Source of the DNA: an uncultured Verrucomicrobiota bacterium
GTDB taxonomy: Bacteria; Verrucomicrobiota; Verrucomicrobiia; Chthoniobacterales; JACTMZ01
Direction: 5' to 3'
DNA length: 45,929 nt
NCBI GenBank assembly: GCA_903934135.1
Contig: CAIZMQ010000098.1
Location: 1 to 45,929 of the forward strand
A model generated the notes under the pieces. It was not told the origin of the DNA and ran no database searches. It saw only the letters and a list, made by a program, of their open reading frames with translations. The stretch's first letter is position 1, and the number at the start of each line of letters is the position of its first letter. The position numbers and the translations under genes were made by a program. Of this stretch, positions 18,148 through 37,404 are shown piece by piece.

Positions 18148-18174
18148 ACGATTGCCCGCGCGTGTCAAACTCGT

Positions 18175-19005
18175 CTATTTGCCGCGATTAGGTTTTGAAA
18201 CTTTGTTAAGTGCGGCCGCCTTTGCGCTCATCTTGTCGATCAGCCCCGGGGGCATAGCATTGAACATTCTCACGCCGCCGGCCGCACGGCCCTCAACTTC
18301 CTTTTGCGCGCTCTGGCAGGCACGTGCGCGTTGTATCGGATTAATAACTTTGCCTACGCCGCCCGCGCTTTGAAGAAAAGGGTGCGTCAGTTCGTAGGTG
18401 GCCTTCATTGTTAGCCCCGCGCGGCGCGCTCTCCATATCACCAAATCACAAAGCGCCGGCGCACTAGATTTCGGGCCGGTTTTGTTTTGCGGCCGCAGTT
18501 GCGAAAGAAAGCCGCGTTTTTCTTTTCGTCCTTGTTCTAGCCATTCTGCGAATTTCCGCACCAGAGCCTTATCCTTCGCGCGCCAATCCACATCGAACAC
18601 GACACGTTCGGCAAAGTTGCTATCCGGGGTTCCAAGTGCAGCGGGCTTAACTTCCGTTAAAGGTTCAAGCGCACCGTCGGATTTATGCCGCTGCCATTCG
18701 CCACACCTAGCAACCAGAGCCGCGCGCAGGCGCGCTGGCAGCGCTGGCCATGGCTTTTGTTGCTGTGGGTTAGTGCTTTCGGGTAGGCCATTGCCGGCCA
18801 GCCAAAAGGCCCAGAATTGCTTTAACTCTTTGGGGGTTGCCTTAGGCTTAAGCATGGCTGCCGCGTCCCTTTGGTATTCGTAGTTCGTCGCCGCGTCCCA
18901 CTCGCGCACAGGCACACGGTGGAAGGCCCACTCTTCGGCAGCCAGAGCCGGCTTGTCCGTTTTGGGGCTTTTGGGGGTTTTGGGTTTCGGGGGTTTGCGT
19001 TTCAC
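18175..19005 (-). CDS. element-encoded protein of unknown function
   Basis: 276 residues, GTG start at 19005 overlapping the integrase stop (GTGA). The N-terminus is a Lys/Pro repeat (KRKPPKPKTPKSPKTDKP) encoded by a G/C-run tract. The rest is rich in Trp, Arg and Lys (QFWAFWLAGNGLPE, LPARLRAALVARCGEWQRH, VRKFAEWLEQGRKEKRGFLSQLRPQNK, HPFLQSAGGVGKVINPIQRARACQSAQKE). No known family is recognised. The basic character and place between integrase and excisionase-like genes suggest nucleic-acid binding. No membrane segment or signal peptide is seen. Confidence 0.75.
   Translation of the reverse strand: MKRKPPKPKTPKSPKTDKPALAAEEWAFHRVPVREWDAATNYEYQRDAAAMLKPKATPKELKQFWAFWLAGNGLPESTNPQQQKPWPALPARLRAALVARCGEWQRHKSDGALEPLTEVKPAALGTPDSNFAERVVFDVDWRAKDKALVRKFAEWLEQGRKEKRGFLSQLRPQNKTGPKSSAPALCDLVIWRARRAGLTMKATYELTHPFLQSAGGVGKVINPIQRARACQSAQKEVEGRAAGGVRMFNAMPPGLIDKMSAKAAALNKVSKPNRGK
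18964..18993 (+). other. second G-run tract of the element
   Basis: Plus strand: G4-N5-G5-N4-G3-N4-G5. Its complement encodes the Lys/Pro N-terminus of the unknown protein. The complement shares the 13-mer ACCCAAAACCCCC with the tract at 15260-15289, so the two copies are in opposite orientation. Coding constraint could explain it. Confidence 0.45.
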
Positions 19006-20231
19006 GCTTTCTTCTTCGCCTTCGCTCTGGGCTTCGGCGCCGGCGTTCCCGGCACGGGGATAGATTCCACGGCCGCCCGCAGGGTTTCTAGTTCGTAATG
19101 CGTGTAGCCTTCGTGCACACGGTCATCAGCGTGCCCTGTGAGCGCTTTTCTCGTATCGGCCGCTACGCCGGCATTAGCCAGCAGGGAAGTAGCCGTGTGG
19201 CGCAAGCTGTGGAAGGAAAGCGCGCTGATAGTGCGCCCGGTGCGCGCTTTGTTCTCTGCCTTCTTCTTCGCTTCGGCCGTTACCCCTTTGCGAATCACGG
19301 CGCCGGCCACGCCGGCTTTTTCCATGATTGCCCGGAATACTTGCGAAAGGCCACGGCAGCCGCCGGTTTTGCGCCCGTGTAATTCGGGGAACACCGGGGC
19401 TTTGCTTATGCCACGCGTTTGCTTCTTCAGCCATGCAATGAAGGCCGGGTGCAGCGGGGTAGTTTGCTCGGCTTCGGTTTTGCTGGCCGTTGTGACGAGC
19501 ACACGCGCCCCCAGATCAACCTGCCCCCATGTAAGCGCCGCAATATCGCCCAGCCGCAGGGCCGTAGTTAGCCCGCAGAGTATGGCGCCTTCCCAATTCG
19601 TGCCCGGGGTCGCCTGCAGCAGGGCTTCAATCTGCCCGTGGGTGAAGGGCAGCCGGCGAGCCTTTGATTTCGCCACGTTATCACGCACGGGCTTAACAGC
19701 CGCGCACGGGTTAACCGTCACGTAGCCCAGCTTTCGGGCCGCTTCGAACGGGGCGTGAAGGGTTTTGCGTATGGCTAGGTTAATGGTGGAAGCTGCCAGC
19801 CCGCGCCCCTGCAGCGCATCGCGATAGGCTAACACTTCCTTGGGGGTAATGCTCGCTAGCGGCGCACCGTCCCGCTTGCCTAGGAATTCGCGAAAATCGT
19901 CCACCGTGCCCCGGTATTTCTCGTAGGTGCCGCCCTTCACGGTTGCCTTCGTGTTCGCCAGCCATTCGCCCAGCCATGCCCCGCAGGTGTGGAAGTTCAA
20001 CTGTTCGCCGGCCGTGCGTTCGTAAAGTTCGGAAGCTACCCGGCGGTAATGCGCTTCGGTAACGTGCCCCCGGGCCATGCGTTCGAATTCCATTGCCACG
20101 GCCAGCGCATCCGCGCGGGTTTTTTTCTTCGTGCTCTTAAAAAAAGCCCTACCATCAGCCGAACGAAAGGCCGCATACCAAAACGGGGAAGATTTCCCAT
20201 CGGTGCGGTTAACTTTGTGAACGCTCGCCAT
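19002..20231 (-). CDS. int: tyrosine recombinase/integrase of the element
   Basis: 409 residues from the ATG at 20231 (the longer frame to 20375 only translates attachment-site DNA). It has an N-terminal arm-binding-like region, a SAM-like core-binding domain (TYEKYRGTVDDFREFLG) and a catalytic domain with Arg226 (TTALRLGDIAALTW), Lys251, HSLRH (His341, Arg344), His367 and Tyr376 in GYTHY. All catalytic residues are present, so it should be active. It would recombine the 31-bp repeats in tRNA-Gly. It is the first gene of the leftward cassette, starting 99 bp inside the right repeat and next to the right arm repeats, which may allow autoregulation. Confidence 0.93.
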   Translation of the reverse strand: MASVHKVNRTDGKSSPFWYAAFRSADGRAFFKSTKKKTRADALAVAMEFERMARGHVTEAHYRRVASELYERTAGEQLNFHTCGAWLGEWLANTKATVKGGTYEKYRGTVDDFREFLGKRDGAPLASITPKEVLAYRDALQGRGLAASTINLAIRKTLHAPFEAARKLGYVTVNPCAAVKPVRDNVAKSKARRLPFTHGQIEALLQATPGTNWEGAILCGLTTALRLGDIAALTWGQVDLGARVLVTTASKTEAEQTTPLHPAFIAWLKKQTRGISKAPVFPELHGRKTGGCRGLSQVFRAIMEKAGVAGAVIRKGVTAEAKKKAENKARTGRTISALSFHSLRHTATSLLANAGVAADTRKALTGHADDRVHEGYTHYELETLRAAVESIPVPGTPAPKPRAKAKKKA

Positions 20232-20235
20232 GACA

Positions 20236-20256
20236 ATGCATAAGAAAAGCATAACA
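20236..20256 (+). repeat. right arm-type repeat pair (GCATAA/AAAGCATAACA)
   Basis: Two GCATA cores 11 bp apart (20238 and 20249), the second inside GAAAAGCATAACA, identical to the left arm copy at 13511-13523 and in the same orientation. It lies just before the integrase start and 73 bp inside the right direct repeat, so binding could also control integrase transcription. Confidence 0.6.
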
Positions 20257-20329
20257 GTTACCCGTGTTTCAAGTGTTTTCTGTGTTAATCCTACAGAGAA
20301 AACGGCACGGCCAGATTGATAGAATCGTA

Positions 20330-20360
20330 TCGCGAGTTCGAGTCTCGTCACCCGCTCTCC
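20330..20360 (+). repeat. attachment site direct repeat, distal side
   Basis: An identical 31-bp copy of 13422-13452, carrying only the tRNA T-arm and acceptor 3' half. It is not a functional tRNA. It is followed by eight T residues (20361-20368), which before integration would have lain directly after tRNA-Gly. Confidence 0.92.
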
Positions 20361-20375
20361 TTTTTTTTGATCCAC

Positions 20376-22552: not shown

Positions 22553-22876
22553 ATGGAGAAACTCACGACCCATGTTTTGGACACGGCGCACGGCAAGCCC
22601 GCAGCAGGGGTCAGTGTTTTCCTTTTCCAAGGCGACCGGCTGGTCTCACAGTCCGTGACCAATGCCGACGGCCGGTGTCCGGAGCCGCTTGCCCTCAAGC
22701 TTCCGTCCGGGGTTTACCGGATTGAATTCGCGGTGGGCGATTATTTCCGCAAGCTCGGGGTGGAGTCGCCGTTTCTCGATTGCGTGCCGGTCCAGTTCAC
22801 TGCGGCGGCCGGTCAGTCTTATCATGTTCCGCTCGTGTGCACACCGTGGTCTTACTCTGCCTACCGGGGCAGCTAA
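22553..22876 (+). CDS. hiuH: 5-hydroxyisourate hydrolase (transthyretin-related)
   Basis: 107 residues. LTTHVLDTAHGKPA (His7), Arg41, His91 and the C-terminal YRGS are the signature and active-site positions of HIU hydrolases, separating them from transthyretin. It hydrolyses 5-hydroxyisourate, the uricase product, to OHCU. It is the first gene of a rightward operon with allC 3 bp downstream. No signal peptide, so cytoplasmic. Confidence 0.94.
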   Translation: MEKLTTHVLDTAHGKPAAGVSVFLFQGDRLVSQSVTNADGRCPEPLALKLPSGVYRIEFAVGDYFRKLGVESPFLDCVPVQFTAAAGQSYHVPLVCTPWSYSAYRGS

Positions 22877-22879
22877 ATC

Positions 22880-24100
22880 ATGGGTCTGATGCTCAACAGG
22901 GCCTTGGAACGGCTCGATTTTCTCGGGCATATTTCCGACAACCCGTGTTACTTGGTGCGGACCTACCTTTCGCCTGCAAACCGGCGGGCGGCGGGGTGCC
23001 TGCTTGGCTGGATGGCGGAGCTGGGGATGCAAACCCAGCACTTGCCGGACGGCACGGTGCGGGGTGTTCTTCCCGGCGCCGCACCGGAGGCCAAGCCGCT
23101 GCTGTTGGGGTCGCATCTGGACACGGTGACCAACGCCGGGAAATACGACGGCGCGCTCGGCCTGATCGCAGCTCTTGCGGCGCTTGAGGAACTCCGGGAC
23201 CAGGGGATTCAACTGCCGTTTCCCGTGCATCTTCTCGGATTTTCCGACGAGGAGGGCGTCCGATTTCAAACGACCTACCTTGGCAGCCGCGGCGTGACCG
23301 GTCAGTTGGACCTTGAAACCCGTGCCCGGCTGGACGCCGCAGGCCAAAGCCAGTCCCTGGTGCTGGCGACCGAGGGTTGGCACGAAGACGCGTCGAACAT
23401 CCATTACGTAGCCGGAAGTGTCCGCGGATACGTGGAGCTCCATATCGAACAGGGCCGCAGTCTCGAGGAATTTGACGAGGCGGCTTGCGTGGTGTCCGGA
23501 ATCAACGGGCAATCGCGCCTGCTGGTGACCCTGACCGGCCGCGCCGACCACGCCGGCACCACGCCCATGGAGTTCCGACGCGACTCCCTGACCGGCGCTG
23601 CCGAGGCTATTCTGGCGACCGAGAAACTCGCCCGCGACCACCCCGGGCTGGTGGCGACGGTCGGCAAGATCGAGGTTCTTCCCGGTGGCTCGAATTCGAT
23701 TCCCGAGGTGACGAGCTTCACCCTTGATTTCCGCCACGCGGTCGATGCCGAGCGAGTCCGCTTGCTGAAGGCTTTGGAAAATTCGGTGAGGAAGATTACT
23801 GCCTCCCGTGAGCTGGAGCTGAATTGGCAGCTGGTACAGGAAAATGATGCGGTTGTCTGTGACGCGGAGCTCGCCAGAAATCTTTGCGACGCTTTGGAAC
23901 GCGTCACCGGTTCGCGGCGACAGCTCGCCAGCGGCGCCGGGCATGACGGGGTCGCGATTTCGAAGGTGGCGCCGATCGGGATGATTTTCGTCCGCTGTCG
24001 GGGCGGGCTTTCCCACCATCCGGATGAATATGTTTCTCCAGCCGACATCGGGGTGGGCATCCGGGTGCTTGTTGAATTCCTAAAATCGCTGCCGGCATGA
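22880..24100 (+). CDS. allC: allantoate amidohydrolase (M20 family)
   Basis: 406 residues with the M20 metal-ligand motifs GSHLDTVTNAGKYDGALG, DEEGVRF, HIEQG and SGAGHDG, plus the dimerisation-domain segment GRADHAGTTPM typical of allantoate/N-carbamoyl amidohydrolases. Context (HIU hydrolase before, allantoinase after) favours allantoate over N-carbamoyl amino acids or ureidopropionate. It releases ammonia and CO2, giving (S)-ureidoglycine. Its end overlaps the allB start by 4 bp (ATGA). Confidence 0.9.
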   Translation: MGLMLNRALERLDFLGHISDNPCYLVRTYLSPANRRAAGCLLGWMAELGMQTQHLPDGTVRGVLPGAAPEAKPLLLGSHLDTVTNAGKYDGALGLIAALAALEELRDQGIQLPFPVHLLGFSDEEGVRFQTTYLGSRGVTGQLDLETRARLDAAGQSQSLVLATEGWHEDASNIHYVAGSVRGYVELHIEQGRSLEEFDEAACVVSGINGQSRLLVTLTGRADHAGTTPMEFRRDSLTGAAEAILATEKLARDHPGLVATVGKIEVLPGGSNSIPEVTSFTLDFRHAVDAERVRLLKALENSVRKITASRELELNWQLVQENDAVVCDAELARNLCDALERVTGSRRQLASGAGHDGVAISKVAPIGMIFVRCRGGLSHHPDEYVSPADIGVGIRVLVEFLKSLPA

Positions 24101-25356
24101 GCGACTTTGATCTTTTGGTGCATACGCCGGACCTGAGCCTGGGCGTGATCGACGGACTTGTGGCGGCGAAGGGTCCCTCGTTGGCCGGCCCGGCGAAACA
24201 GGTGGTCGAGGTGCCGGACGGGCGGATCGTTCCGGGGTGGATTGACGCCCATGTGCATTTCAACGAGCCCGGCCGCACCGAGTGGGAAGGCTTGGAAACC
24301 GGAAGTCTCGCGCTCGCGGCGGCCGGCGGCACGACCTTCTTCGACATGCCACTGAACTCGACGCCTCCGGTGGTGGATGCGGCATCGCTGGAAAGAAAGC
24401 GGCTCATCGCCGGGGAGAAATCGCATTTGGATTTCGCGCTCTGGGGAGGACTCACGCCGGACTCGCTCGCCCACTTGGAGGCCATGGCGGAAGGCGGTGC
24501 GATCGGCTTCAAGGCCTTCATGTGTCACTCCGGACTCGATGAGTATCCATTGGCCGACGCGGCGACCTTGAGGAGGGGGATGAAGATTGCTGCCGGCTTG
24601 AACCTGCCCGTTTCGGTCCACGCCGAGATTTCCCGTGACTTGCCGTGCGTGGGTCACGACATGGCGGCGTGGCTGGCCTCTCGACCGCAGAGCTTTGAAC
24701 AGGTGGCCATTCGGCTCGCCCTTGATCTCGCCGGGGAAACCGGATGCGCCCTGCACATCGTCCACGTCACCTGTCCGGAGGGAATTGACTTGGTGACCCG
24801 AGCCAAGAAACAAGGCGTCGATGTCACGGTCGAGACCTGTCCCCATTACCTTTTGCTCGACGAGGAGGATGCTATCGCGATCGGCGCCCCGGCAAAATGC
24901 GCGCCGCCGCTGCGTCCTGCGGAGACCGTGGCGAGAATGTGGGAAAAGCTGCGGGCGGGCGAAATCGATACGCTCGGTTCCGACCATTCGCCCTCGAGTC
25001 CCGATCTGAAAACTGGCGATGATTTGTTTGCGATATGGGGCGGCATCGCCGGAATTCAACATGGTTACCCACTGCTGCTCGACCGGGAACCAAATCTCAC
25101 GGAGTCCGCCAGCGTGAATGTCGCGAAGCGTTTCAAGCTGTGTCGCAAGGGCTCGCTTTCGATAGGAAAACACGCGGACTTCTCAATTTTCATCCCGGAT
25201 GACCGACCCATCGAACGGTTCGAGCTTTTGACCCGCCATCCGAGCTCCCCTTACCTCGGAATGCCGCTCAGGCATCGGGTGAAGGCGACATTTCTGCGGG
25301 GCGCTAAGGTGGACATTCAAACAAAAGGCCGTTTCCTTCGTCCCGATTTCTTCTAA
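24097..25356 (+). CDS. allB: allantoinase
   Basis: 419 residues of the amidohydrolase superfamily. GWIDAHVHFNEPGRTEWEG holds the HxH metal ligands, GFKAFMCHSG the lysine expected to be carboxylated, then SVHAEIS, HIVHVTCPEG and LGSDHSPSS give the remaining ligands. The R-T-E-W-E-G stretch and neighbours separate it from dihydroorotase and hydantoinase. It opens allantoin to allantoate. It is coupled to allC by a 4-bp overlap and followed 10 bp later by the ureidoglycine aminohydrolase. Confidence 0.93.
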   Translation: MSDFDLLVHTPDLSLGVIDGLVAAKGPSLAGPAKQVVEVPDGRIVPGWIDAHVHFNEPGRTEWEGLETGSLALAAAGGTTFFDMPLNSTPPVVDAASLERKRLIAGEKSHLDFALWGGLTPDSLAHLEAMAEGGAIGFKAFMCHSGLDEYPLADAATLRRGMKIAAGLNLPVSVHAEISRDLPCVGHDMAAWLASRPQSFEQVAIRLALDLAGETGCALHIVHVTCPEGIDLVTRAKKQGVDVTVETCPHYLLLDEEDAIAIGAPAKCAPPLRPAETVARMWEKLRAGEIDTLGSDHSPSSPDLKTGDDLFAIWGGIAGIQHGYPLLLDREPNLTESASVNVAKRFKLCRKGSLSIGKHADFSIFIPDDRPIERFELLTRHPSSPYLGMPLRHRVKATFLRGAKVDIQTKGRFLRPDFF

Positions 25357-25366
25357 CCTAACAATC

Positions 25367-26095
25367 ATGCATACTCGAAGCGTAGTCTCCAGCCGTCACG
25401 CCCTCATCGCCCCCGACGGGCATGTGCCCTCCGCGTTCCCCGGTTGGGAAAAGGCAGTGGGCTTCGTCTTGTTGTCACCGGCGATGGGTGCGTCCCTCTC
25501 CCAAATCCTCATTACCTTTCAAGAAGACGGCGGCAGTGCGGTCCTTGCTGCGGATCAAAAGGAGCATGCCTTTTATGTTGAGACTGGAACCTGCCGGATT
25601 CATCTCGGCGACGGCGAAGCCATCGAATTGGGCGCAAGCGGGTTTGCTTTCATTCCCGCGGAAACGGCGTGCCGGGTCGTCGGATCGGCAGACGCCCGGG
25701 TGACAGTGTTCCGCAAGGACTTCGAGCCACTTGCGGGGTTGGAGTCGCCGCCGGTGACCTTCGGCCATGCCAACGAAGTCAAAGGAGAACCCTTTCTAGG
25801 TAACGAGCGGGCGGTTTTGCAGACCCTACTGCCGATTGATCCGCGGTTTGACCTCGCGATCAATATTTTTACCTACCAACCGGGGGCGACTCTTCCCTTT
25901 GTCGAGACCCACATGATGGAACACGGCTTGCTGATGCTGTCCGGCCAGGGCGTCTATCGGTTGGAGGGTGCGTATTATCCGGTCGAGCCCGGGGATGCGA
26001 TCTGGATGGCACCCTACTGTCCGCAGTGGTTCGCGGCCATCGGGGACGTCCCGGCATCTTACCTCTATTACAAAAACATCCACCGGATGCCCTGA
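25367..26095 (+). CDS. allE: (S)-ureidoglycine aminohydrolase (bicupin)
   Basis: 242 residues forming two cupin domains: about 45-120 (EHAFYVETGTCRIHLGD) and 160-235 (PGATLPFVETHMMEHGLLMLSGQGVYRLEGAYYPVEPGDAIWMAPYCPQWF). The C-terminal domain has the E-x-H-x4-H metal set. It converts ureidoglycine to (S)-ureidoglycolate and ammonia with Mn2+ (family knowledge). It follows allB by 10 bp and fits the pathway order exactly. Confidence 0.92.
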   Translation: MHTRSVVSSRHALIAPDGHVPSAFPGWEKAVGFVLLSPAMGASLSQILITFQEDGGSAVLAADQKEHAFYVETGTCRIHLGDGEAIELGASGFAFIPAETACRVVGSADARVTVFRKDFEPLAGLESPPVTFGHANEVKGEPFLGNERAVLQTLLPIDPRFDLAINIFTYQPGATLPFVETHMMEHGLLMLSGQGVYRLEGAYYPVEPGDAIWMAPYCPQWFAAIGDVPASYLYYKNIHRMP

Positions 26096-26102
26096 AGCTT
26101 CA

Positions 26103-29100
26103 TTGTCCGCTTTTATTACCATCAACGGCGACCCGGTCGAGGTCTCGTCGGCTCCACTCCACCAAAATCTGTTGGAGTTCCTTCGCTTCTCCGGCCGCAC
26201 GGGCTCCAAGACGGGCTGCAACGAGGGCGACTGCGGGGCCTGCACTGTGCTGCTCTTAGAACCCGGCCGGCCGCCGCGGGCCATCAATTCCTGCTTGGCC
26301 CTGGTACATTCCTTGATCGGCCGGGAAGTGGTGACAGCGGAGGGACTGGGCGGTAGCGGGCTTCATGCGGTCCAGCAGGCGATGATCGCAAGCAACGGCT
26401 CGCAGTGCGGTTACTGCACGCCAGGATTTGTCTGTTCTATGGCCGAGGCTTCCGCTCGCGGGGTGGCCGGTGATCCGATGGCGGTCGCGGACCAGCTCTG
26501 CGGAAACCTTTGTCGCTGCACCGGGTATCGGCCGATCCGCGACGCGCTGGACGGCGTTCCGGACCTGCCGATGGCAAGCTCTGTCCAGCCATCAGAAGCG
26601 GGCAGTCCCGCTTATCTGACTCCCGCTACTCTCGACGCGGCGCTGCGATTGAAGTCAGAGCATCCGGACGCACCTTTCATCGTCGGCGCGACCGAGCTGG
26701 CGGTATTAATCAACAAGCGACACTTGCGCCCGGAGAAATTGATCTCCTTGGAGCACGTGGACCGGCTTCTCAGCGTTGAGGAAACCGAGAGTCACTGGCA
26801 TGTCGGGGCGGCGGTTCGCTTGACTGATTTGGTGGATCGCTTGAAAGGCGAGTTTCCGGCGCTCGACCAGATGTTCCGGCTCTTCGCCTCGCGGCAAATC
26901 CGGCATCGCGCCTCGCTGGGTGGAAATTTGGTGACGGCGTCACCCATCGGGGACTCTGCCCCGGTTCTTTTAGCGCTTGATGCGACGGTTACGCTGGCCT
27001 CGCTTACCGGGGAGCGCGTGGTGCCACTGGCGGAGTTTTTCACCGGTTACCGGAAGACGGTCCTCTCCTCGGGAGAGATCCTGGTGACTATCTCCCTCCC
27101 AAGGAATCTCCCGGGTCGCTGTGTCTTCTACAAGGTGTCCAAACGGCGAGAGATGGACATCTCGGCAGTCTCCGCCGCCATCCGGTTGGTGGTGGATGAC
27201 GAGAAGGTCATCACCAACGCGCGCCTCGCCTACGGCGGAGTCGCGGCGACTCCGGCCCGGGCGACGAAGACCGAGCGCTTGCTCGTGGGGAGATACTATC
27301 AGGACGCTGCAGATGACGAGGTACTGGAAGCTCTGGCCGCCGAATTCCAGCCGCTCGATGATCTGCGGGCTTCGGTGGACTATCGCCAGGCATTGATCCG
27401 GGATTTGTTCTTGAAGGCGCTGAGCGGTGCCGAGGACGTGATCGCAGCGCCGGTGATTCGGCCCTTGCCGCCGCGTGATCTGCCGCACGAATCCTCCGTC
27501 GGTCACGTGACCGGCGAGGCGCTTTATACCCAGGACTTGGCTCTGCGCCGCAACGCGCTGCAGGTTTGGCTGGTGCGCTCGGAGCACGCTCACGCCCGGC
27601 TGACACGCGTCGATGTGAGCCGAGCACGGAACGCCGCGGGCGTGCGTGCGGTGCTAACGGCCGGCGACATTCCAGGGCACAACAACACGGGCTGTTCGCG
27701 GGATGACGAGCCCTTGTTCGCATCGGACCTGATTCAATTCCACGGTCAGGTGATTGCCGCGGTGGTGGCCGGATCTCTGGAGCAAGCCCGCCTCGCGGCC
27801 CAATTGGTGGTGGTGGAGTATGAGCCGCTGGATCCGTTGTTAGGGATCGAGGCCGCGTTGGAAAAACAGTCGTTCCACACCGATCCCCACACCCTCCGCC
27901 GCGGGGCGGTTGATGAGGCCTTGCGCGATGCACCCCGGGTGATCGAGGGGGATTTCCATATCGGCGGACAGGAGCATTTTTATCTCGAAAGCCAGGCCGC
28001 TTTTGCCGAGCCGGACGGTGACGGGGTTTTTGTTTTCTCCTCGTCGCAGCACCCGAGTGAGACCCAGATGATTGTCTCGGAGGTCCTCGGCTGGCCGAAA
28101 CACCGGGTGGTGGTCGAGTCGCCCCGGTTGGGCGGCGGATTCGGGGGAAAAGAAACCCAGGCCAATCCGTGGGCTGCGATCTGCGCCCTGGCGGCGTACC
28201 GCACCGGCTGCGCGGTGGCCATGCAGCTGGACCGGGATCACGACATGGAATGCTCCGGGAAACGTCATCCATTTTTCGCCCGCTACCGGGTGGGTTTTCT
28301 TCCGGACGGCAGGCTGGAGGCGGCAGACATCCAGCTTTTTTCCGACGGGGGATGGTCGCTGGACCTCTCGCAACCGGTGAACGACCGGGCTCTGTTCCAT
28401 CTGGACAACGCCTACTTCATCCCGCACGTCCGTTTCGAAGGGCGGGTTTGCAAGACCAACGTCACCTCGCACACCGCGTTCCGGGGATTCGGCGGTCCGC
28501 AGGGGATGCTCGTGATCGAGGAAATCATCGCCCGGATCGCAGGGGAACTCGGGCTTGCTCCGGATGAAGTCCGCGCCCGGAATTTCTATCGGGGCGAGGG
28601 AGAAAGCAACACCACCCATTACGGCGAGGTGGTCGAAGGAAACCGCCTGGCGAGGATCTGGTCGGAGCTCAAGGAGAGCGCGTCGTTTGGAAAACGTCGC
28701 GGGGAAATCGCGGAATGGAACACCGCGCATCCCTACCGGAAGCGCGGGCTTGCCATCACTCCGGTGAAGTTTGGCATCAGCTTTACGCTGAAGCACTACA
28801 ACCAGGCCGGGGCCTTGGTGCTGGTCTATGCCGATGGCTCGGTGCAGGTGAACCACGGCGGCACGGAGATGGGCCAGGGACTGCACACCAAGATTCTCGG
28901 CGTGGCGATGAGGGAACTGGGGCTGCCCCGGGAGCTAATCCGCCTGATGCACACCCGCACCGACAAGGTGCCTAACACCTCTGCGACCGCGGCGAGCTCG
29001 GGTTCTGATTTGAATGGAATGGCGGTCGCCGATGCCTGCCGGACCTTGATCGGCCGCCTGATCCCGGTGGCCGCCGCGATGCTTTCCTGCCGTGAGGATG

Positions 29101-29738
29101 AGTTGCGGTTCTCCGAGGGAATGGTGCGCGGGGGTGGGCGGGAGGTATCATTCGCCGCCGTTGCGGGCAAGGCCTACACGGAGCGGATCCCGTTGTCTGC
29201 GACCGGATTTTACAAAACGCCGGGTCTTCATTGGGACTGGTCGATGGAGAATCCCAAGGGCCGGCCATTCCACTACTACGCCTTCGGGGCCTCGGTATGC
29301 GAAGTGGAGCTGGACGGCTTCACTGGAATGCACCATCTGCGCCGCGTCGACATTCTCCATGATGTCGGCGACTCGCTGAACCCGGACATCGACCGGGGGC
29401 AGATCGAAGGTGGCTTCGTGCAGGGCGCGGGATGGCTGACCAGCGAGGAGCTGAAGTGGAGCAAGGAAGGCCGGCTGCAATCTCACAGCGCCAGCACTTA
29501 CGCCATTCCGACGATTTCTGACGCACCTCTGGATTTCCGGGTCAATCTGTTGGCCGATGCAGCGCAGCCCCACACCATCCACGGCTCGAAGGCGGTGGGT
29601 GAGCCCCCCTTGATGTTGGCCATCTCGGTGAGGGAGGCACTTCGGGACGCGCTGGCGGCCTTCGGCAGCCAGACGCAGTTTTCCTCCCCGCTCACGCCCG
29701 AGGTTCTCAAGCAGGCGATCGGAAAAATTCCGCTCTAA
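26103..29738 (+). CDS. xdh: xanthine dehydrogenase, single-chain (FeS-FAD-Mo domains fused)
   Basis: 1,211 residues from a TTG at 26103, the first codon matching homology, 7 bp after the allE stop; the frame is open upstream but overlaps allE. Domains in order: plant-type [2Fe-2S] (Cys39, 44, 47, 64), second [2Fe-2S] (QCGYCTPGF, NLCRCTGY), FAD domain (FIVGATELAVL, ASLGGNLVTASPIGDSAPVLLALDA; about 175-450) and a molybdopterin domain with GGGFGGKET, AFRGFGGPQG, HGGTEMGQGLH, SGSDLNG and GSKAVGEPPL (catalytic Glu1167). It oxidises hypoxanthine/xanthine to urate. Fusion of XdhA and XdhB into one chain is like eukaryotic XDH. The matching XdhC lies at 33138. Confidence 0.92.
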   Translation: MSAFITINGDPVEVSSAPLHQNLLEFLRFSGRTGSKTGCNEGDCGACTVLLLEPGRPPRAINSCLALVHSLIGREVVTAEGLGGSGLHAVQQAMIASNGSQCGYCTPGFVCSMAEASARGVAGDPMAVADQLCGNLCRCTGYRPIRDALDGVPDLPMASSVQPSEAGSPAYLTPATLDAALRLKSEHPDAPFIVGATELAVLINKRHLRPEKLISLEHVDRLLSVEETESHWHVGAAVRLTDLVDRLKGEFPALDQMFRLFASRQIRHRASLGGNLVTASPIGDSAPVLLALDATVTLASLTGERVVPLAEFFTGYRKTVLSSGEILVTISLPRNLPGRCVFYKVSKRREMDISAVSAAIRLVVDDEKVITNARLAYGGVAATPARATKTERLLVGRYYQDAADDEVLEALAAEFQPLDDLRASVDYRQALIRDLFLKALSGAEDVIAAPVIRPLPPRDLPHESSVGHVTGEALYTQDLALRRNALQVWLVRSEHAHARLTRVDVSRARNAAGVRAVLTAGDIPGHNNTGCSRDDEPLFASDLIQFHGQVIAAVVAGSLEQARLAAQLVVVEYEPLDPLLGIEAALEKQSFHTDPHTLRRGAVDEALRDAPRVIEGDFHIGGQEHFYLESQAAFAEPDGDGVFVFSSSQHPSETQMIVSEVLGWPKHRVVVESPRLGGGFGGKETQANPWAAICALAAYRTGCAVAMQLDRDHDMECSGKRHPFFARYRVGFLPDGRLEAADIQLFSDGGWSLDLSQPVNDRALFHLDNAYFIPHVRFEGRVCKTNVTSHTAFRGFGGPQGMLVIEEIIARIAGELGLAPDEVRARNFYRGEGESNTTHYGEVVEGNRLARIWSELKESASFGKRRGEIAEWNTAHPYRKRGLAITPVKFGISFTLKHYNQAGALVLVYADGSVQVNHGGTEMGQGLHTKILGVAMRELGLPRELIRLMHTRTDKVPNTSATAASSGSDLNGMAVADACRTLIGRLIPVAAAMLSCREDELRFSEGMVRGGGREVSFAAVAGKAYTERIPLSATGFYKTPGLHWDWSMENPKGRPFHYYAFGASVCEVELDGFTGMHHLRRVDILHDVGDSLNPDIDRGQIEGGFVQGAGWLTSEELKWSKEGRLQSHSASTYAIPTISDAPLDFRVNLLADAAQPHTIHGSKAVGEPPLMLAISVREALRDALAAFGSQTQFSSPLTPEVLKQAIGKIPL

Positions 29739-32239
29739 CGAAAACCGGCGACCGCGGCGAGCGGGTCTTCCGCCTCGCGGATGAGGTCGAAGGTGAACGG
29801 CATGAGTAGCTCTGTCGCAAACTCGACCGGATCGGGATCAGTGACGAGCTGGCGGAGAAGGGCGATGGCGACCGGATACCACCGCCCGCTCCTAGCGTTC
29901 CAGGCTACCTGGATGCGCTTGTCGGGAAGGTCCTTGCCTTCCCGGATGAAGGCCGCTTCCTGCTGGAGGATTTCCTCGAACTGCTCGTGTGAGACACGGC
30001 CGTGTGCAACCTCGGCCCAGAGCTCCCAGCGTGACCGCTCGGTGGTGGCGAGGTCGTCCATCACGCGGACGAAGATGTTTTCCCCCTGGCTGTTCTTTAT
30101 GGTCGCGGGCAGGGCGACGCAGCCGTTTCCGGAGAGCCAGTCGCAGAGATATTGGAGGGCTTGGAAGACATTGTAGCGGACTTCCTCGGGATCGTCGTTG
30201 GCGATGACGTCGGAGACTTCCAGGGTGGCGGCGAGAACGCTGCGTGGATAATTGGGGTCCTTAAGGTCAAGGCCTTCGGCGTCGGGAGCGGAGACAAACT
30301 CGAGCAGCGGCTCGTGCTCGGCTGGATTCGGGACGAGAGCTTTGACGAGTGCGGTGAAGGTTTCCGGTCCGCGGCGCCAAGCCTCGACCATCGCCAGACC
30401 AGTGCGGACGAAGGCGGGGTGGGCAACCCAGAAACCGTTGAGCCCTCGCTTGAGCTGGGTGGAAACATCGCGGATGTAGCCGACCATGCACATTTCGTAG
30501 GATGCTGGGTTTCCCTCTTCGTAGAGCATTCCATACATGCCGCCGATGCCGATTGCGCCGATCGGCGCAAGTGCGTTGACGAGAATCTTGTGCGACTCGC
30601 GGATGTGGTTGATCACGATGTTGGGGTCAGCCTTGACTGGGATCCGGTAGTTGGGGTCGTTCTTGAAAAGCCGGGCGGCGGAGGCGATAAAATCATGCCA
30701 GCCGAGGCTGCCGCCGAGGAAATGCGGATGCAGCGTGTGCGCGATTTCGCGGATGCGGAAAATGGCGCGCGGGTTTTCGAAAACGATGAAGAGCTTGATA
30801 GTCCCGGACTGATAGGAGGGCTCGACTTCTTGAATGGCGGCCTCCGCCTGGTCGATGAGATCTTTCAGGTAAGCGGCTTCCTCTTCGTTCTCAAGTTTCG
30901 GGATGTAGAAAGCGAGCGCCTCAGGCCGGTTTCGGTTGTGCCAGAGGTGTGTCGCGAAGTCGTAGAGGTGGAGCGGAAGCGGACAGCCGTTGAGCAAGTG
31001 GTTGCCATCGGGAAGAGCGAGTCCGGGAATGCGCTTGATCGGTTTGGACAGGCCGGTTTCGTCGAGTCGATAGATGCGTCCGGTTTTTGCTTCCTCGAAA
31101 CGAAGTGTCCGGTCGAAGCAGCCGATGAGGTTCTCACAGGCACTAAGAAGACTGGCCATTATAGGGGTCTTGGAGTCCTCGTTGTCAGCCCCCCAGCGGG
31201 GAACCTGGCCGGCGGCCTCCGCCAGTTCGGTGACGATGGCGGGTTCGTCGGGTGGATGCCGGTTGAAGGCGTTCATGGCATTGATCGACATCTTGGCCGT
31301 ATCGGGAGGACCGAAGAGGGTGACTTGGTCGCCTTTGAGGAAATCGGGAACAACGACCGGTTTCGGTTGGTTCACGGGAGGAGGGAGCGGGCCAATGACA
31401 ATGCGGCCCTGACCGTCTTTGATACCGATGGCGGTTTTGTAGTCCGGGGAGTCGTAGGCGACTTGCGAATTCGCGGACACGGCCTCGGCGGTGACCTGGT
31501 CCATCAATGCACGGTCAAGGATGCGCTGGTCGAGGACTGTGCGGAGGTGGTCGCGTGTGCCGAGATAGAGGCGGGTGGCGAAGGCGAGCGCCTCGTCGGT
31601 TTCGATGGTCGGAAATTTTTCACGAAGTCCGGCGGCGACCCGCAGTCCGGGAACGGCGGAGACGGGCTCTGAAATCTGATAAAGCCTGCCGAGAAGCGGG
31701 GCGGAAATGAAAGGGAGATAAGCCGGTATGTCAGGCGCGACAAGGTCCTCAATCCGGAGGCGGGCGATCTCGTGGATTTGCCGCAGGGCTTCCACCATTT
31801 CCTCCGGGCGGGAGTTTTCGATCCGGGAATGAAAGGCGGCGAGGATACCTTTCTTGGTGGTGAGCCGCGCGCAGATGATGAAGGGAAATTCAAAGCGTTC
31901 ACGGTAGCGCGCGTTGAGTGCGTTGAACTCGTCGTATTCGGATTCGGAAAGGTGGTCGAGTCCGAGGCCGCCCTGTTCGCGGGCGGATTCGGAGGTGAGA
32001 GCGCCGGCCTGGGCCACCTTGCCTGCGAGGTCCGGGTGGGCGCGGATGAGTCTGAGTTTTTGGTCCTCGGTGCCGGCGTCGACAACAGCGCGCATTTTGG
32101 CGACGAGATCCGCCCGATCGAGGAACGGGCGCATGGCGGCGGCACGTCCTGCCACCCATTCCGAGTGCTCATAGACGCGGCCAAGCAATTCGATAAAGTT
32201 TGCAGCCTGGAGTGGATTCAGCTGGGATGTGTGCGTCAT
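29735..32239 (-). CDS. fusion: OHCU decarboxylase (UraD) + malate-synthase-A-like domain
   Basis: 834 residues from the ATG at 32239 (the frame reaches 32311, inside the uricase). Residues 5-165 are UraD: AHPDLAGK (His68), SAREQ (Glu88), GLGLDHLSESEYDEF, FEFPFIICARL, ARLR (Arg160). Residues about 175-834 follow malate synthase A: TLFGPPDTAKMSINAMN, NEDSKTP, LYDFATHLWHN, FYIPKLENEEEAAY, IVFENPRAIFRI (Glu488), GSLGWHDFI (Asp516), NGFWVAHPAF, LSGNGCVAL and VMDDLATTERSR (Asp729). The canonical R-P-R-G-W-H motif reads KRIPGLAL, so one catalytic Arg appears lost. UraD makes (S)-allantoin; malate synthase would use glyoxylate, the pathway end product. It is convergent with xdh (stops overlap by 2 bp) and divergent from uricase. 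Confidence 0.88.
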   Translation of the reverse strand: MTHTSQLNPLQAANFIELLGRVYEHSEWVAGRAAAMRPFLDRADLVAKMRAVVDAGTEDQKLRLIRAHPDLAGKVAQAGALTSESAREQGGLGLDHLSESEYDEFNALNARYRERFEFPFIICARLTTKKGILAAFHSRIENSRPEEMVEALRQIHEIARLRIEDLVAPDIPAYLPFISAPLLGRLYQISEPVSAVPGLRVAAGLREKFPTIETDEALAFATRLYLGTRDHLRTVLDQRILDRALMDQVTAEAVSANSQVAYDSPDYKTAIGIKDGQGRIVIGPLPPPVNQPKPVVVPDFLKGDQVTLFGPPDTAKMSINAMNAFNRHPPDEPAIVTELAEAAGQVPRWGADNEDSKTPIMASLLSACENLIGCFDRTLRFEEAKTGRIYRLDETGLSKPIKRIPGLALPDGNHLLNGCPLPLHLYDFATHLWHNRNRPEALAFYIPKLENEEEAAYLKDLIDQAEAAIQEVEPSYQSGTIKLFIVFENPRAIFRIREIAHTLHPHFLGGSLGWHDFIASAARLFKNDPNYRIPVKADPNIVINHIRESHKILVNALAPIGAIGIGGMYGMLYEEGNPASYEMCMVGYIRDVSTQLKRGLNGFWVAHPAFVRTGLAMVEAWRRGPETFTALVKALVPNPAEHEPLLEFVSAPDAEGLDLKDPNYPRSVLAATLEVSDVIANDDPEEVRYNVFQALQYLCDWLSGNGCVALPATIKNSQGENIFVRVMDDLATTERSRWELWAEVAHGRVSHEQFEEILQQEAAFIREGKDLPDKRIQVAWNARSGRWYPVAIALLRQLVTDPDPVEFATELLMPFTFDLIREAEDPLAAVAGFR

Positions 32240-32291
32240 TATAAGGAACACAGCTGGGATACGGGCGTCACTAGGAGGGTTACAGAGTGAG
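32240..32291. promoter_or_regulatory. 52-bp divergent control region between the uraD fusion and uricase
   Basis: The only space for both promoters of these divergent genes. A GGAGGG lies 15 bp before the uricase start and GAGTGAG directly before it. The uraD-fusion start has no recognisable Shine-Dalgarno. No clear operator palindrome is seen. Confidence 0.4.
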
Positions 32292-33131
32292 ATGAGCCGT
32301 TTAAAATGCAATCAATATGGTAAGGCCCTGGTGCGGGTCTTGAAGGTCCTCCGTGGTGCCCAACACGAAGTGTGCGAACTGGAGGCAGATGTGCTTTTGC
32401 GCGGAGACTTGGAGGGTTCGTATCTTGGGCCTGACAATTCGTCGATCGTGCCGACGGACACGGTAAAGAACACCGTGCGTGTGCTGGCATACGATTCGCT
32501 GGGAACTTGCCGCACCAGCTTCGCCAAGGTTCTTGGCGAGCATTTCTTGGGACAGTACGTTCACCTGGACGGGGTCTCCGTCGAGTTGCGTGAGCGGCGC
32601 TGGAAGAGGATGAACGTGGAAAATGACGGCCGGGCGCATTCGTTCGTGGCCGAGGACAATGGAGAGTGGTTTTGCCGCGGTGAGTTTGTCCGCGCAGGCA
32701 CGGGGATTTTGAGTGCCGGGATACGGAATCATTTGATCATGAAAACCACCGGGTCTGGTTTCGAGGGCTATCCTCAATGTGAGTTGACCACCCTACCTCC
32801 GACCAACGACCGGATCCTCTCGACCCGTTTGACTGCCGAATGGATATTTTCCGATCAGGCGCGGGATTACGGCGCCGCGGACGAAGCGATCCTGAAGGCC
32901 GCCTACGAGGTTTTTTCCGGAACCTACAGCCCGTCGGTGCAACGGACTTTATTTCAGATCGGGGAAGCGGCGCTGGCAGCGGTTCCCGGGATTGACGAGA
33001 TCGCTCTCACCCTGCCCAACGTGCATTTTCTCGGTATGGACCTGGCGAACTTGGGACGCCCGGGGAACGATTGCCTGTTCCTCCCCACCGATGAGCCGCA
33101 CGGACAGATTGAGGCTGTGGTGACCCGCTAG
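32292..33131 (+). CDS. urate oxidase (cofactor-free uricase)
   Basis: 279 residues from the ATG at 32292. Tandem T-fold (tunnelling-fold) protein with the uricase catalytic residues: Lys11 in QYGKALVRVLKV, Thr55 in IVPTDTVKNTV, the urate-binding MKTTGSGFEGY, and ALTLPNVHFLGMDL with the Asn-His pair. It oxidises urate to 5-hydroxyisourate and H2O2 without cofactor. The product goes to HiuH and the UraD domain encoded nearby. xdhC follows 6 bp later. Confidence 0.95.
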   Translation: MSRLKCNQYGKALVRVLKVLRGAQHEVCELEADVLLRGDLEGSYLGPDNSSIVPTDTVKNTVRVLAYDSLGTCRTSFAKVLGEHFLGQYVHLDGVSVELRERRWKRMNVENDGRAHSFVAEDNGEWFCRGEFVRAGTGILSAGIRNHLIMKTTGSGFEGYPQCELTTLPPTNDRILSTRLTAEWIFSDQARDYGAADEAILKAAYEVFSGTYSPSVQRTLFQIGEAALAAVPGIDEIALTLPNVHFLGMDLANLGRPGNDCLFLPTDEPHGQIEAVVTR

Positions 33132-33137: not shown

Positions 33138-33908
33138 ATGGCGAATCCCTGGAGCGAGATCGGTCGTTTATGCGCAGGCGGGGAAACCGTGACTGTGGTG
33201 ACGGTCACCGGCACAAGGGGAAGCGTGCCCGGAGAGGTCGGGGCGAAAATGGTCGTGGGCGCGAACGGCCGGATGCTCGGAACCGTGGGTGGAGGCAAGG
33301 TGGAGTCCAAGGCTGTTGCAACCGCCGCGGCAATGCTGAGTGGGGGTGCGAGGTGCGCGCTGGCAACCTGGAACCTTCAGCGGGACGTCGGGATGACCTG
33401 CGGTGGCGAGATGTCGTTTTTGTTCGAGCGGGTGGCTGGGGTGCCGGACTGGCACGTGGTGATTTTTGGAGCGGGCCATGTCGCTCAGGCCTTGGTGCAT
33501 GTGCTTGGAAAAATGGCGTGCCGCATCGATGTCGTCGACGAGCGGGCGGAATGGTTGGAGCGGCTTCCGGTCGGGCGGAACATTTCAACCCATCAGGTTG
33601 CCCGCTTCGAGGACGGGGTACGGCTGGTTCGTCAAGGCAGCATGCTGGTATGCATGACGAAGGGACACTCCACGGACCGCCCCGTGCTGCGGGAGGTTTT
33701 TCTCAATGGTTTGGGGGTTTCGTTCTTGGGGGCCATCGGGAGCGCGGCCAAGCGGGCGGTGCTGCTACGCGAGCTGCGGGAAGACGGGGTGGGCGAAGAG
33801 GTTTTGCAAAGCTTGGTTTGCCCCTTGGGCTTGCCCGTTGGTGGAAACGACCCTGCGGAAATCGCGGTGAGTATCGCCGCGCAGTTGCTGGAGCGCCGAG
33901 GGCCCTGA
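33138..33908 (+). CDS. xdhC: XdhC-family molybdenum cofactor insertion/sulfuration chaperone
   Basis: 256 residues. The N-terminal XdhC/CoxI domain has VTVTGTRGSVPGEVGAKMVV, GTVGGGKVES and MTCGGEMSFLFE; the C-terminal Rossmann domain has VVIFGAGHVAQALVHVL and ending GLPVGGNDPAEIAVSIAAQLL. XdhC binds Moco, promotes its sulfuration and inserts it into xanthine dehydrogenase (family knowledge). It is co-oriented with uricase, apart from xdh at 26103, yet in the same locus. Confidence 0.92.
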   Translation: MANPWSEIGRLCAGGETVTVVTVTGTRGSVPGEVGAKMVVGANGRMLGTVGGGKVESKAVATAAAMLSGGARCALATWNLQRDVGMTCGGEMSFLFERVAGVPDWHVVIFGAGHVAQALVHVLGKMACRIDVVDERAEWLERLPVGRNISTHQVARFEDGVRLVRQGSMLVCMTKGHSTDRPVLREVFLNGLGVSFLGAIGSAAKRAVLLRELREDGVGEEVLQSLVCPLGLPVGGNDPAEIAVSIAAQLLERRGP

Positions 33909-35128: not shown

Positions 35129-36157
35129 TCAGCCCCCGATGAAGGACATCTCGACCTTGGGTGCGCCGCCGGCGGCCCCGGCGCGGATTTCCGAATAGCG
35201 GTCCGCCCGCCGACTCCAAAGTCCGGCCACCAACCGGTAGAGTTCCTCGTTGTCGAGGTTGTCCGCCCGCATGGCGCCGACGAGATCGAATCCTTCGGAC
35301 GCGAAGAGGCAGGTGAAGAGCCGCCCGTCGGCCGACAACCGCGCCCGCGTGCAATCGCGACAGAACGGCGCGGAGATCGAGGTGATCAGCCCGAATTCGC
35401 AACCATCATCGCGGTGGCGGTAGCGGGCAGCCACTTCGCCGTATTGCGCGGGCGATACCGGTTCGAAAGCGAATTCCCGCGCGAGCCGTTCGAGGATTTC
35501 GCGGCCGGACACGACCATGGCGGGATCCCAATGATTGGAATTGCCGACGTCCATGAATTCGATGAAGCGCAGGACGAGGCCCTCGCGTTTACAGTGGCGG
35601 GCTATGGGCAGTATTTCGCCGTCGTTCACGCCGCGCTGCACGACCATGTTGATTTTTACGCCCAGCCCCGCGGCGCGCGCCGCGGCGATGCCCTCGAGCA
35701 CGCGACCCGGATGGTGTCCGCGTCCGTTCATCGCCCCGAAAATCCCCGGATCCAGCGCGTCGAGGCTCACGGTCACGCGGTGCAGGCCCGCCTCGGCCAG
35801 TCCGGCCGCCAATTCCGGCAGGAGCAGCCCGTTGGTCGTCATGGCGATATCCTGCAAGGCGGGAAAACGGCGCAGCCCCTGCAGGAATTTTCTCACTCCG
35901 CGCCGCAGGAGAGGTTCGCCGCCGGTGATGCGCAGCTTGCCGACCCCGCAGCGGACGAAGGCGCCGATGATGCGGTCGAGTTCGGGCAGTCGCAGGAGTT
36001 GATCTTTGCGCAGAAAAACGTGGTTGTGGTCGAAAACCTCCGCCGGCATGCAGTAGGTGCAACGCAGATTGCAGCGATCCGTGAGAGAAATGCGCAGATC
36101 ACGCACCGGGCGGGCGAGAAGATCGAGAGGCTGGCTGTTGGGGGTCGGCGGGGTCAT
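35129..36157 (-). CDS. moaA: GTP 3',8-cyclase MoaA (radical SAM)
   Basis: 342 residues from the ATG at 36157 (the longer frame to 36217 overlaps moeA). Radical-SAM cluster CNLRCTYCMP (Cys29, 33, 36); ITGGEPLLRRG; second cluster FCRDCTRARLSADGRLFTCLF; C-terminal Gly-Gly (EMSFIGG). It converts GTP to 3',8-cyclo-7,8-dihydro-GTP, the first step of Moco synthesis with MoaC. It is divergent from moeA with 47 bp between starts. Confidence 0.96.
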   Translation of the reverse strand: MTPPTPNSQPLDLLARPVRDLRISLTDRCNLRCTYCMPAEVFDHNHVFLRKDQLLRLPELDRIIGAFVRCGVGKLRITGGEPLLRRGVRKFLQGLRRFPALQDIAMTTNGLLLPELAAGLAEAGLHRVTVSLDALDPGIFGAMNGRGHHPGRVLEGIAAARAAGLGVKINMVVQRGVNDGEILPIARHCKREGLVLRFIEFMDVGNSNHWDPAMVVSGREILERLAREFAFEPVSPAQYGEVAARYRHRDDGCEFGLITSISAPFCRDCTRARLSADGRLFTCLFASEGFDLVGAMRADNLDNEELYRLVAGLWSRRADRYSEIRAGAAGGAPKVEMSFIGG

Positions 36158-36204
36158 TGATCGTCGCCAGGGCGGACCATCCAAGCTATCCGTCATCCAT
36201 CGCC

Positions 36205-37404
36205 ATGGAAACCCCAAGCACGCCAGCGCGGGCCGCGGAACTCATTTTCGCCCTGCGCGGGACAACACCCTCGCAACGTCGTCCGCTCGGCGACGCGGCC
36301 GGCCGCATTCTGCGTCAGGAGGTGGTGGCGGACGCCGACTTTCCGCCGTTCGATCGTGTGATGATGGACGGGTTGGCCGTGCGTCACCATGAGGTGACGG
36401 GCGGACGGCGCGGGTTCACGGTGCTCGGATCGGCGCCGGCGGGGCGCGGTCGGACGACTCTGCCGGCGCAGCCCGGCGCGGCTTTGGAAATCATGACCGG
36501 CGCGGTCCTGCCGGAGGGCGCCGATTGCATCCTGCCTTGCGAGTGGTATGACCTGTCTGGTGCTGCCGCCGTCTTGCGCGCGCAGTCTTCGGTGCAGCCG
36601 GGCGCTTTTATCCACCGCCGCGGCTCGGACCATCGCACTGGTGATGTCCTGCTCCGGCCCGGTGTGCGCATGGGGCCTGTCGAGGTCAGTATCGCGGCGG
36701 CTTGCGGGTGTGCCGAGGTTGAGGTGTCCGAGTCGCTCCGAATCGCGGTACTCGGCACCGGTGACGAACTGGTTGCGGTCGGGGATGTGCCGCGCGAGGG
36801 GCAGATCCGGCAGACCAATGTTTCCGCGCTGTCTGCTGCGCTGAGGTTGTCCGGCTACGGACCGGTCGAAACCGGCGCATTGCCTGACGAAGCGCCGGCG
36901 TTGCGGGAGGGCCTGGTTTCCTCCCTGGCACGCCACGATGTGATCGTTGTCACCGGCGGTGTTTCCAAAGGGCATCGCGACTTGGTCCCGGCGATTCTCG
37001 GGGAGACGGGGGCTTCGCGCATCCTGCACGGCGTGACCCAGCGTCCCGGGAAACCGATGGGCGTGTGGCATGTGGCGGGCGGCCCAGTGGTTTTCGGCCT
37101 GCCCGGCAATCCGGTGTCCGCCCTCGTATGCCTGCGCCGCTACGTCCTGCCCGCGCTATTCCGGTGGAGCGGGGGGACGGAGGGTCCGCCGCCGCGGAGG
37201 ATTTTGCGCGGGTCGTTCGCGAGGCCGCACGGACTGACCTTGTTTCTCCCGGTCTTGGAAGGCGGGGACGGGAATCTCGCTCCGGCACCCGTGGCCAATT
37301 CCGGGGATTTTTGCGGCCTGGCCGGGAGTTGCGGATTTGTGGAGGTGGACGAAAGTTTTGCCGAAGGTGCGCCCCTTCCGTATTTTCGTTGGTGCGAAAT
37401 ATGA
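36205..37404 (+). CDS. moeA: molybdopterin molybdotransferase MoeA
   Basis: 399 residues from the ATG at 36205 (an upstream in-frame TTG at 36157 is less likely). FPPFDRVMMDGLAV (usual Y replaced by L), GAALEIMTGAVLPEGADCI, VLGTGDELV, VVTGGVSKG, PGKPMG and VFGLPGNPVSA are MoeA motifs. It inserts molybdate into adenylylated molybdopterin. No MogA/MoaB partner is in the window. Its stop overlaps the moaC start (ATGA). Confidence 0.95.
   Translation: METPSTPARAAELIFALRGTTPSQRRPLGDAAGRILRQEVVADADFPPFDRVMMDGLAVRHHEVTGGRRGFTVLGSAPAGRGRTTLPAQPGAALEIMTGAVLPEGADCILPCEWYDLSGAAAVLRAQSSVQPGAFIHRRGSDHRTGDVLLRPGVRMGPVEVSIAAACGCAEVEVSESLRIAVLGTGDELVAVGDVPREGQIRQTNVSALSAALRLSGYGPVETGALPDEAPALREGLVSSLARHDVIVVTGGVSKGHRDLVPAILGETGASRILHGVTQRPGKPMGVWHVAGGPVVFGLPGNPVSALVCLRRYVLPALFRWSGGTEGPPPRRILRGSFARPHGLTLFLPVLEGGDGNLAPAPVANSGDFCGLAGSCGFVEVDESFAEGAPLPYFRWCEI

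Follow-up and report, generated by a model that had tools for sequence, protein, structure and literature searches.

Why would an enzyme of an early step in urate breakdown be joined, in one polypeptide, to a malate synthase? The question is raised by a gene in a 45,929-nt stretch of DNA (contig CAIZMQ010000098.1, here called the window) from an uncultured bacterium of the Verrucomicrobiota. In a first-pass annotation, this gene was described as one 834-residue frame at 29735-32239, in which a full decarboxylase of 2-oxo-4-hydroxy-4-carboxy-5-ureidoimidazoline (OHCU), UraD, is followed by a malate-synthase-A-like region. We found the coordinates to be correct and the frame to be free of stops, and could add the strand, which had not been given: it is the minus strand, the plus strand of the same interval being interrupted by stops. 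The open frame, counted from TTG, extends over 29735-32311 (858 amino acids), and the GC content at the three codon positions is coding-like in both halves (0.70/0.42/0.73 and 0.66/0.42/0.74). On the evidence of sequence and predicted structure, the gene probably encodes a bifunctional enzyme of purine catabolism whose malate synthase (MS) half disposes of the glyoxylate formed by the pathway. Its features are as follows (residues in ATG numbering).

29735..32239, minus strand: UraD-malate synthase fusion gene, 834 amino acids from the ATG at 32239, uninterrupted frame
31748..32218, minus strand: OHCU decarboxylase (UraD) domain, PF09349 and TIGR03164 above cut-off, with His68, Glu88 and Arg162
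29738..31732, minus strand: long-form MS half, directly behind the end of UraD (...LVAPD/IPAY...)
31205..31264, minus strand: 20-residue insertion in the MS half, which the three long rows printed have and the single printed row of classical malate synthase A (MS-A) lacks
30395..31033, minus strand: MS TIM-barrel domain, PF01274, holding Arg403, Glu488 and Asp516
29810..30187, minus strand: MS C-terminal domain, PF20659, 39.0 bits, cut-off 23.1

The Pfam search of the 858-residue frame gave three domains above cut-off: OHCU_decarbox (158.7 bits, cut-off 24; residues 32-188), MS_TIM-barrel (73.1 bits, cut-off 26.4; residues 427-639) and MS_C (residues 709-834). The UraD half also passes the UHCUDC equivalog TIGR03164 of NCBIfam (177.4 bits, cut-off 96.25), in agreement with the full decarboxylase claimed before. 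It carries the His, the Glu-Gln motif and the C-terminal Arg which we take to be the catalytic residues of UraD. His68 and Glu88 of the catalytic trio named earlier stand, but Arg160 is variable across the family alignment; the family-wide Arg is residue 162, the motif of which occurs in 67 of 67 rows. The models of known UraD fusions fall far short (PRK13799, 135.6 bits of the 1087 required; PRK13797, 42.8 of 814), the UraD part alone matching.

For the MS half, the label "malate-synthase-A-like" holds as distant kinship, the MS Pfam domains being above cut-off, but not as an assignment, since the NCBIfam equivalog malate_syn_A gives only 120.3 bits against a cut-off of 594.5. The NCBIfam library includes a model of malate synthase G (MS-G), and no MS-G model was among the six NCBIfam families matched at E<=0.01. 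The AlphaFold model of the MS half (predicted local distance difference test, pLDDT, 92.4; predicted TM-score, pTM, 0.92) has as its closest fold in the Protein Data Bank (PDB) the MS-A of E. coli, 3cuz (E 4.8e-26; TM-score 0.65 on the query and 0.82 on the target), and MS-G structures match as well, ranked after MS-A. The Arg, Glu, Asp and Asp of the MS active site, of which Arg and Asp are presumably catalytic and Glu and Asp presumably magnesium ligands, align to the 3cuz chain and are invariant in a 28-row alignment; Asp729, the last of them, lies in the C-terminal part, outside the TIM-barrel. Among the long MS rows the Arg, the Glu and the first Asp are present in 53 of 53; 51 have the final Asp as well, and two show a gap at its position. 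The MS half starts where its standalone homologues start in the alignment, as exemplified by a 697-residue standalone frame in another genome (G248), which is 74% identical to residues 1-653 of the 664 of the MS half. In a 74-row MS tree, a fully supported long branch divides these long proteins from classical MS-A, and the window row clusters with two other verrucomicrobial rows (100 in the Shimodaira-Hasegawa-like approximate likelihood ratio test). Judged by tree and predicted fold, the MS half is thus a member of a separate long clade (about 650 amino acids) with the malate synthase fold; plain MS-A is ruled out by the sub-cut-off equivalog score and the separation in the tree.

The neighbours of the fusion gene belong to purine catabolism. 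Those named in the first-pass annotation (HIU hydrolase, allantoate amidohydrolase-like amidase, allantoinase, ureidoglycine aminohydrolase and uricase) were all found, and xanthine dehydrogenase and XdhC are additional members of the cluster.

22553..22876, plus strand: 5-hydroxyisourate (HIU) hydrolase, PF00576, 110.3 bits
22880..24100, plus strand: allantoate amidohydrolase-like M20 amidase, PRK09290.2-5, 442.5 bits, just under the cut-off of 479
24097..25356, plus strand: allantoinase, TIGR03178, 431.5 bits, cut-off 357.85
25367..26095, plus strand: (S)-ureidoglycine aminohydrolase, TIGR03214, 268.5 bits, cut-off 200
26058..29738, plus strand: xanthine dehydrogenase, a single frame comprising the small and large parts, TIGR02965, 983.3 bits, cut-off 849.5
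32292..33131, plus strand: uricase, TIGR03383, 259 bits, cut-off 168.4, start set by inspection
33138..33908, plus strand: XdhC-type protein, PF13478 and PF02625

The amidase scores 336.7 bits with the hydantase subfamily (cut-off 204), and the xanthine dehydrogenase frame gives 417.1 bits with TIGR02963, under the cut-off of 467. Xanthine dehydrogenase is convergent with the fusion gene and overlaps it by 4 bp; uricase is divergent from it, with start codons 52 bp apart. By their profile matches, the neighbours cover the route from xanthine to ureidoglycolate. A MoaA-type molybdenum cofactor gene (35129-36217, PF06463) lies near the xanthine dehydrogenase and XdhC genes; enzymes of the xanthine dehydrogenase type require this cofactor.

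In the mechanism that we propose, the UraD half would decarboxylate OHCU to (S)-allantoin, which allantoinase, the amidase and ureidoglycine aminohydrolase would convert to ureidoglycolate; a further step, for which no enzyme was found here, would yield glyoxylate, and the MS half would condense this carbon end product of the pathway with acetyl-CoA to malate. Through the fusion, an entry enzyme and a glyoxylate sink would always be made together and kept in one place, and the benefit would be that a reactive aldehyde is removed and its carbon saved. Such joint production or placement is likelier than the channelling of an intermediate, because the joined steps are not consecutive in the pathway.

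To see in what company the long MS occurs, a scan of GTDB genomes was carried out with the window MS half and the G248 sequence. It yielded 31 long-MS loci, with best segments 45-74% identical, which by the taxon labels of their records include Verrucomicrobiota, Myxococcota, Bdellovibrionota and one bin of the Planctomycetaceae. At 14 of the 31 loci (blastp, fetched flanks of up to 8 kb) the long MS has ureide enzymes next to it or fused to it, namely at L052, L057, L058, L060, L066-L070, L072, L074 and L077-L079, at L079 in the fused frame only. Allantoinase is above cut-off in 24 of 32 genomes with a long MS or its remnant (the window genome G000, G248, a relative described below, G010, and 29 behind the loci). 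Sixty-two neighbours of long MS genes were drawn from 16 loci, of which 14 lack a ureide match; L052 and L060, which have one, supplied two neighbours apiece. No pathway common to these neighbours emerged from the families listed (25 of 83), and ten inspected singly held nothing from the ureide pathway. The absence of isocitrate lyase cannot be claimed, because 25 of the 83 neighbour families are listed and no search was aimed at that enzyme. At L070:10089-14269, where a standalone long MS adjoins, a class-V aminotransferase gene, which could encode a ureidoglycine-glyoxylate aminotransferase, is flanked on one side by a single-repeat allantoicase-like gene and on the other by a gene that fuses a beta-lactamase domain (PF00144, hereafter BLAC) to allantoicase. 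Two-domain allantoicase-UraD frames occur near long MS genes in L058, L066, L126 and L131, which are loci of Myxococcota type.

In the Bdellovibrionota, UraD is joined to the same MS clade in another way. The frames of L072, L078 and L079 (1513-1601 amino acids; e.g. L072:7989-12620) begin with the long MS, which is followed by OHCU_decarbox, BLAC and Allantoicase twice. In a sample of 290 genomes of this phylum (that of G431, Bdellovibrionota by record titles), a long MS scoring above 500 bits occurs in 50, 41 of them in frames of at least 1500 amino acids; the remaining nine comprise G429, which has two separate genes, as well as frames truncated at contig ends and frames that are shorter or broken. 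The giant proteins measure about 1550 amino acids overall, L100-L119 are further examples, and broken frames (L074, L137, L138) were left as found. All four families, MS, UraD, BLAC and allantoicase, are present in 24 of 24 giants scanned, of which L129 came from the Myxococcota sample. That sample (377 genomes, phylum of G412, Myxococcota by record titles) has a long MS above 500 bits in 54 genomes, 43 in frames of 600-800 amino acids and one in a 1608-residue giant; this share is not an unbiased rate, because at least 17 of the genomes were already known from the 31-locus scan. In six Myxococcota frames scanned with Pfam, the long N-terminal extensions yielded no domain beyond the MS part, and UraD was not found in such extensions by blastp.

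Did the two fusions arise once or twice? The UraD of the window is placed among those of its own class (28 rows, support 100/99), and the UraDs of the giants form a group of their own (30 rows, 100/98). In the approximately unbiased (AU) test, a single origin was rejected for the MS halves (p 1.84e-6, from a quick tree with 17 rows set against 57), but for the UraD halves a single fused clade was not rejected at 0.05 (p 0.0677), with long branches flagged. The UraD tree left out stretches that were shorter than 120 amino acids, contained X or were duplicates. The MS tree omitted rows of less than 430 amino acids or with more than 5 X, duplicates, classical frames outside 480-700 amino acids and giants beyond 12; L001, L002, L028 and L121 were left out of the trees as copies of the window. 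The row L076, labelled MSA in tree and alignment, is a truncated long-type row, and a mixed alignment (A3), which placed UraD pieces onto the MS region, was not used. Common descent of both fusions is thus ruled out by the MS tree, though not by the UraD test alone, and the rejection in the MS tree, together with the opposite domain order, makes two independent fusions the best reading of these sequences.

The history of the window fusion can be followed in G010, a genome of the same genus, which has a syntenic locus with 75-93% DNA identity (L022, G010:C12:368000-387500). Its UraD is 80% identical in protein sequence and has a stop where the MS half would start, and MS remnants match window positions 31223-31316 and 29735-29815, i.e. 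scraps of both ends. It follows that the fusion is most likely older than the split of G000 and G010, and that the MS half was later lost in G010. The locus is in decay: the MS half and the uricase gene are mostly missing, as are parts of the genes for ureidoglycine aminohydrolase and XdhC. A second urate cluster of G010, on another contig, holds a separate UraD and a classical MS-A. Unfused UraD, HIU hydrolase, allantoinase, ureidoglycine aminohydrolase and classical MS-A stand in one stretch in G005, G008 and G010, all of this genus (the allantoinase of G010 being only a fragment), and the equivalent unfused genes of G006 are split between two contigs.

Among 97 genomes of the genus and order, G000 alone matches across the full length of both halves, and a count of the architecture in 384 genomes of the class and 387 of the phylum (overlapping samples) gave this one genome. 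The only other long MS in these samples, besides the G010 scraps, is the standalone gene of G248; a third verrucomicrobial long MS, also standalone, is in the Akkermansiaceae genome bin of L075. The clade is rare in the sampled Verrucomicrobiota and commoner in Myxococcota and Bdellovibrionota. Within G000 (88.9% complete, 182 contigs), the MS half is the sole PF01274 match. Plasmids gave no match in a DNA search, and a protein search gave matches below 60% identity only, 24-28% among the 20 matches listed.

The coupling proposed in the first-pass annotation, in which MS consumes the glyoxylate made by the same pathway, is supported by the active-site residues, the predicted fold, the urate cluster, the 14 ureide loci of 31 and the second fusion, while the MS-A label falls away. 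Several observations weigh against a glyoxylate-disposing fusion enzyme. No ureide gene lies near the long MS in 17 of the 31 loci, several of them on short contigs, nor in the fetched flanks of the two standalone verrucomicrobial cases; no second intact UraD-MS order occurs in the class and phylum samples; the MS half can be dispensable, because G010 lost it; and the UraD halves, as said, do not by themselves demand two origins. Further, ureidoglycolate lyase (PF04115) has no match in G000 nor in any of the searched genomes with a long MS or its remnant (32 genomes and 41, two of them shared), so the source of the glyoxylate is not fully accounted for.

The lack of PF04115 matches bears on the explanation that survives best after ours, although we consider it unlikely: that the substrate of the MS half has shifted, either to ureidoglycolate itself, with urea released and glyoxylate condensed in place, or to a different 2-oxo acid or acyl-CoA. 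In that case the long clade would provide the missing ureidoglycolate step, and its distance from MS-A and the 20-residue insertion in the printed rows would fit a changed substrate. However, all four malate synthase catalytic residues are retained, and the PF04115 count covers only genomes with a long MS or its remnant. The step could also be performed by a ureidoglycolate amidohydrolase of M20 type, an enzyme at which no genome-wide search was aimed, and ureidoglycolate decays spontaneously.

Less likely still, the fusion may be neutral or transient, both halves working but their joining having no meaning for the pathway. This would agree with the single intact case, with G010, which retained UraD and lost MS, and with the variety of partners of UraD, which include allantoicase and an N-carbamoyl amidase (NCBIfam models) and, in excerpts of PMC3646786, the HIU hydrolase of plants. 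On the other hand, UraD has been fused with the same MS clade a second time, independently by the MS tree, and the clade clusters with ureide genes, both of which count against this reading. That assembly or binning united two genes is hardly credible and can be ruled out, for although the assembly is incomplete and fragmented, the frame is intact with even codon-position GC, and the junction is not an assembly artefact because the syntenic copy in G010 has the same arrangement and keeps scars of both MS ends.

With a glyoxylate-disposing fusion enzyme preferred for the window, a wider proposal may be made for the whole clade, which we hold only tentatively: the long MS would be a dedicated glyoxylate sink of urate catabolism, recruited into UraD fusions at least twice; the giant, PuuD and HIU hydrolase would take urate to malate in three proteins; and BLAC, a beta-lactamase-family serine hydrolase, would be a new, non-homologous allantoinase. 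Of the 23 stretches fetched around giants, 22 hold a PuuD-type urate oxidase, 21 an HIU hydrolase, 8 a xanthine dehydrogenase and none an allantoinase; four of the five genes upstream of giants given to Pfam were PuuD-type, that of L079 not. In the 41 giant-fusion genomes, allantoinase TIGR03178 was above 357.85 bits in none (best 290.9), and PuuE (TIGR03212) had no match above cut-off. BLAC is the one domain of the giant with no assigned step, and with no allantoinase above cut-off we infer that it may open the allantoin ring. The serine and lysine of its SxxK motif do not vary across 24 rows; when the BLAC stretch was compared by sequence with the PDB, only weak matches came up, to an alkaline D-peptidase and a D-Ala-D-Ala carboxypeptidase, and the predicted BLAC-allantoicase model is poor (4 rows, pLDDT 64.9, pTM 0.50). 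Against this role, all 41 genomes have sub-threshold amidohydrolase matches, of up to the said 290.9 bits, among which a divergent allantoinase is possible, and G429 combines an allantoinase above cut-off with a BLAC-allantoicase fusion (L069), so that the two are not strictly exclusive.

Elsewhere in the window, inspection by eye revealed minus-strand frames at 15396-20375 whose translations resemble a primase/helicase-type protein and an integrase; adjoining them, near 13.4 kb, a stretch resembles a tRNA gene, and the whole is perhaps an integrated element. A secreted-looking protein at 14141-15130 has a C-terminal VPEP...R tail like the PEP-CTERM sorting signals.

If the proposed function is true, purine nitrogen scavenging and carbon recovery would be tied in one polypeptide, a pairing that would have arisen twice in opposite orders. 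The analysis also marks out a separate malate synthase clade that the curated MS-A model rejects at its cut-off. It may further point the way to an allantoinase so far overlooked and to the enzyme of the missing ureidoglycolate step, in bacteria of which most are represented by genome bins (30 of the 31 loci have record titles that name a metagenome-assembled genome). Neither fusion is described in the titles and abstract openings listed by searches of open-licence literature on both enzymes and on ureide catabolism, which does not prove absence.

Compared with known systems, the MS half resembles E. coli MS-A (3cuz) in fold, in the four catalytic residues and in the combination of TIM barrel and C-terminal domain, but differs in sequence (22% identity in the fold alignment) and in length, the classical form being about 130 residues shorter. 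A parallel in role is yeast Dal7, a malate synthase encoded in the DAL (allantoin) cluster, which according to excerpts of PMC3646786 disposes of excess glyoxylate; it is likewise a sink for the glyoxylate of allantoin breakdown, but is listed there as a separate gene. Known UraD fusions, as far as NCBIfam models, PMC3646786 and PMC2834698 describe them, have a partner from the same pathway or of amidase type: plant TTL is UraD with HIU hydrolase (PMC3646786), and allantoicase-UraD and UraD-N-carbamoyl amidase are the others (NCBIfam models). The partner in the window is, by contrast, a malate synthase, which stands outside the nitrogen-releasing steps. The Cryptococcus fusion of allantoicase and ureidoglycolate hydrolase (DAL2,3,3) is likewise a multi-enzyme ureide protein, but it joins consecutive steps and, in the excerpt of PMC3646786, names no malate synthase, whereas the window fusion joins non-consecutive ones. 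The giants of the Bdellovibrionota share with the window fusion both UraD and the long MS clade, and differ from it in the opposite domain order, in two further domains and, by the MS tree, in a separate origin.

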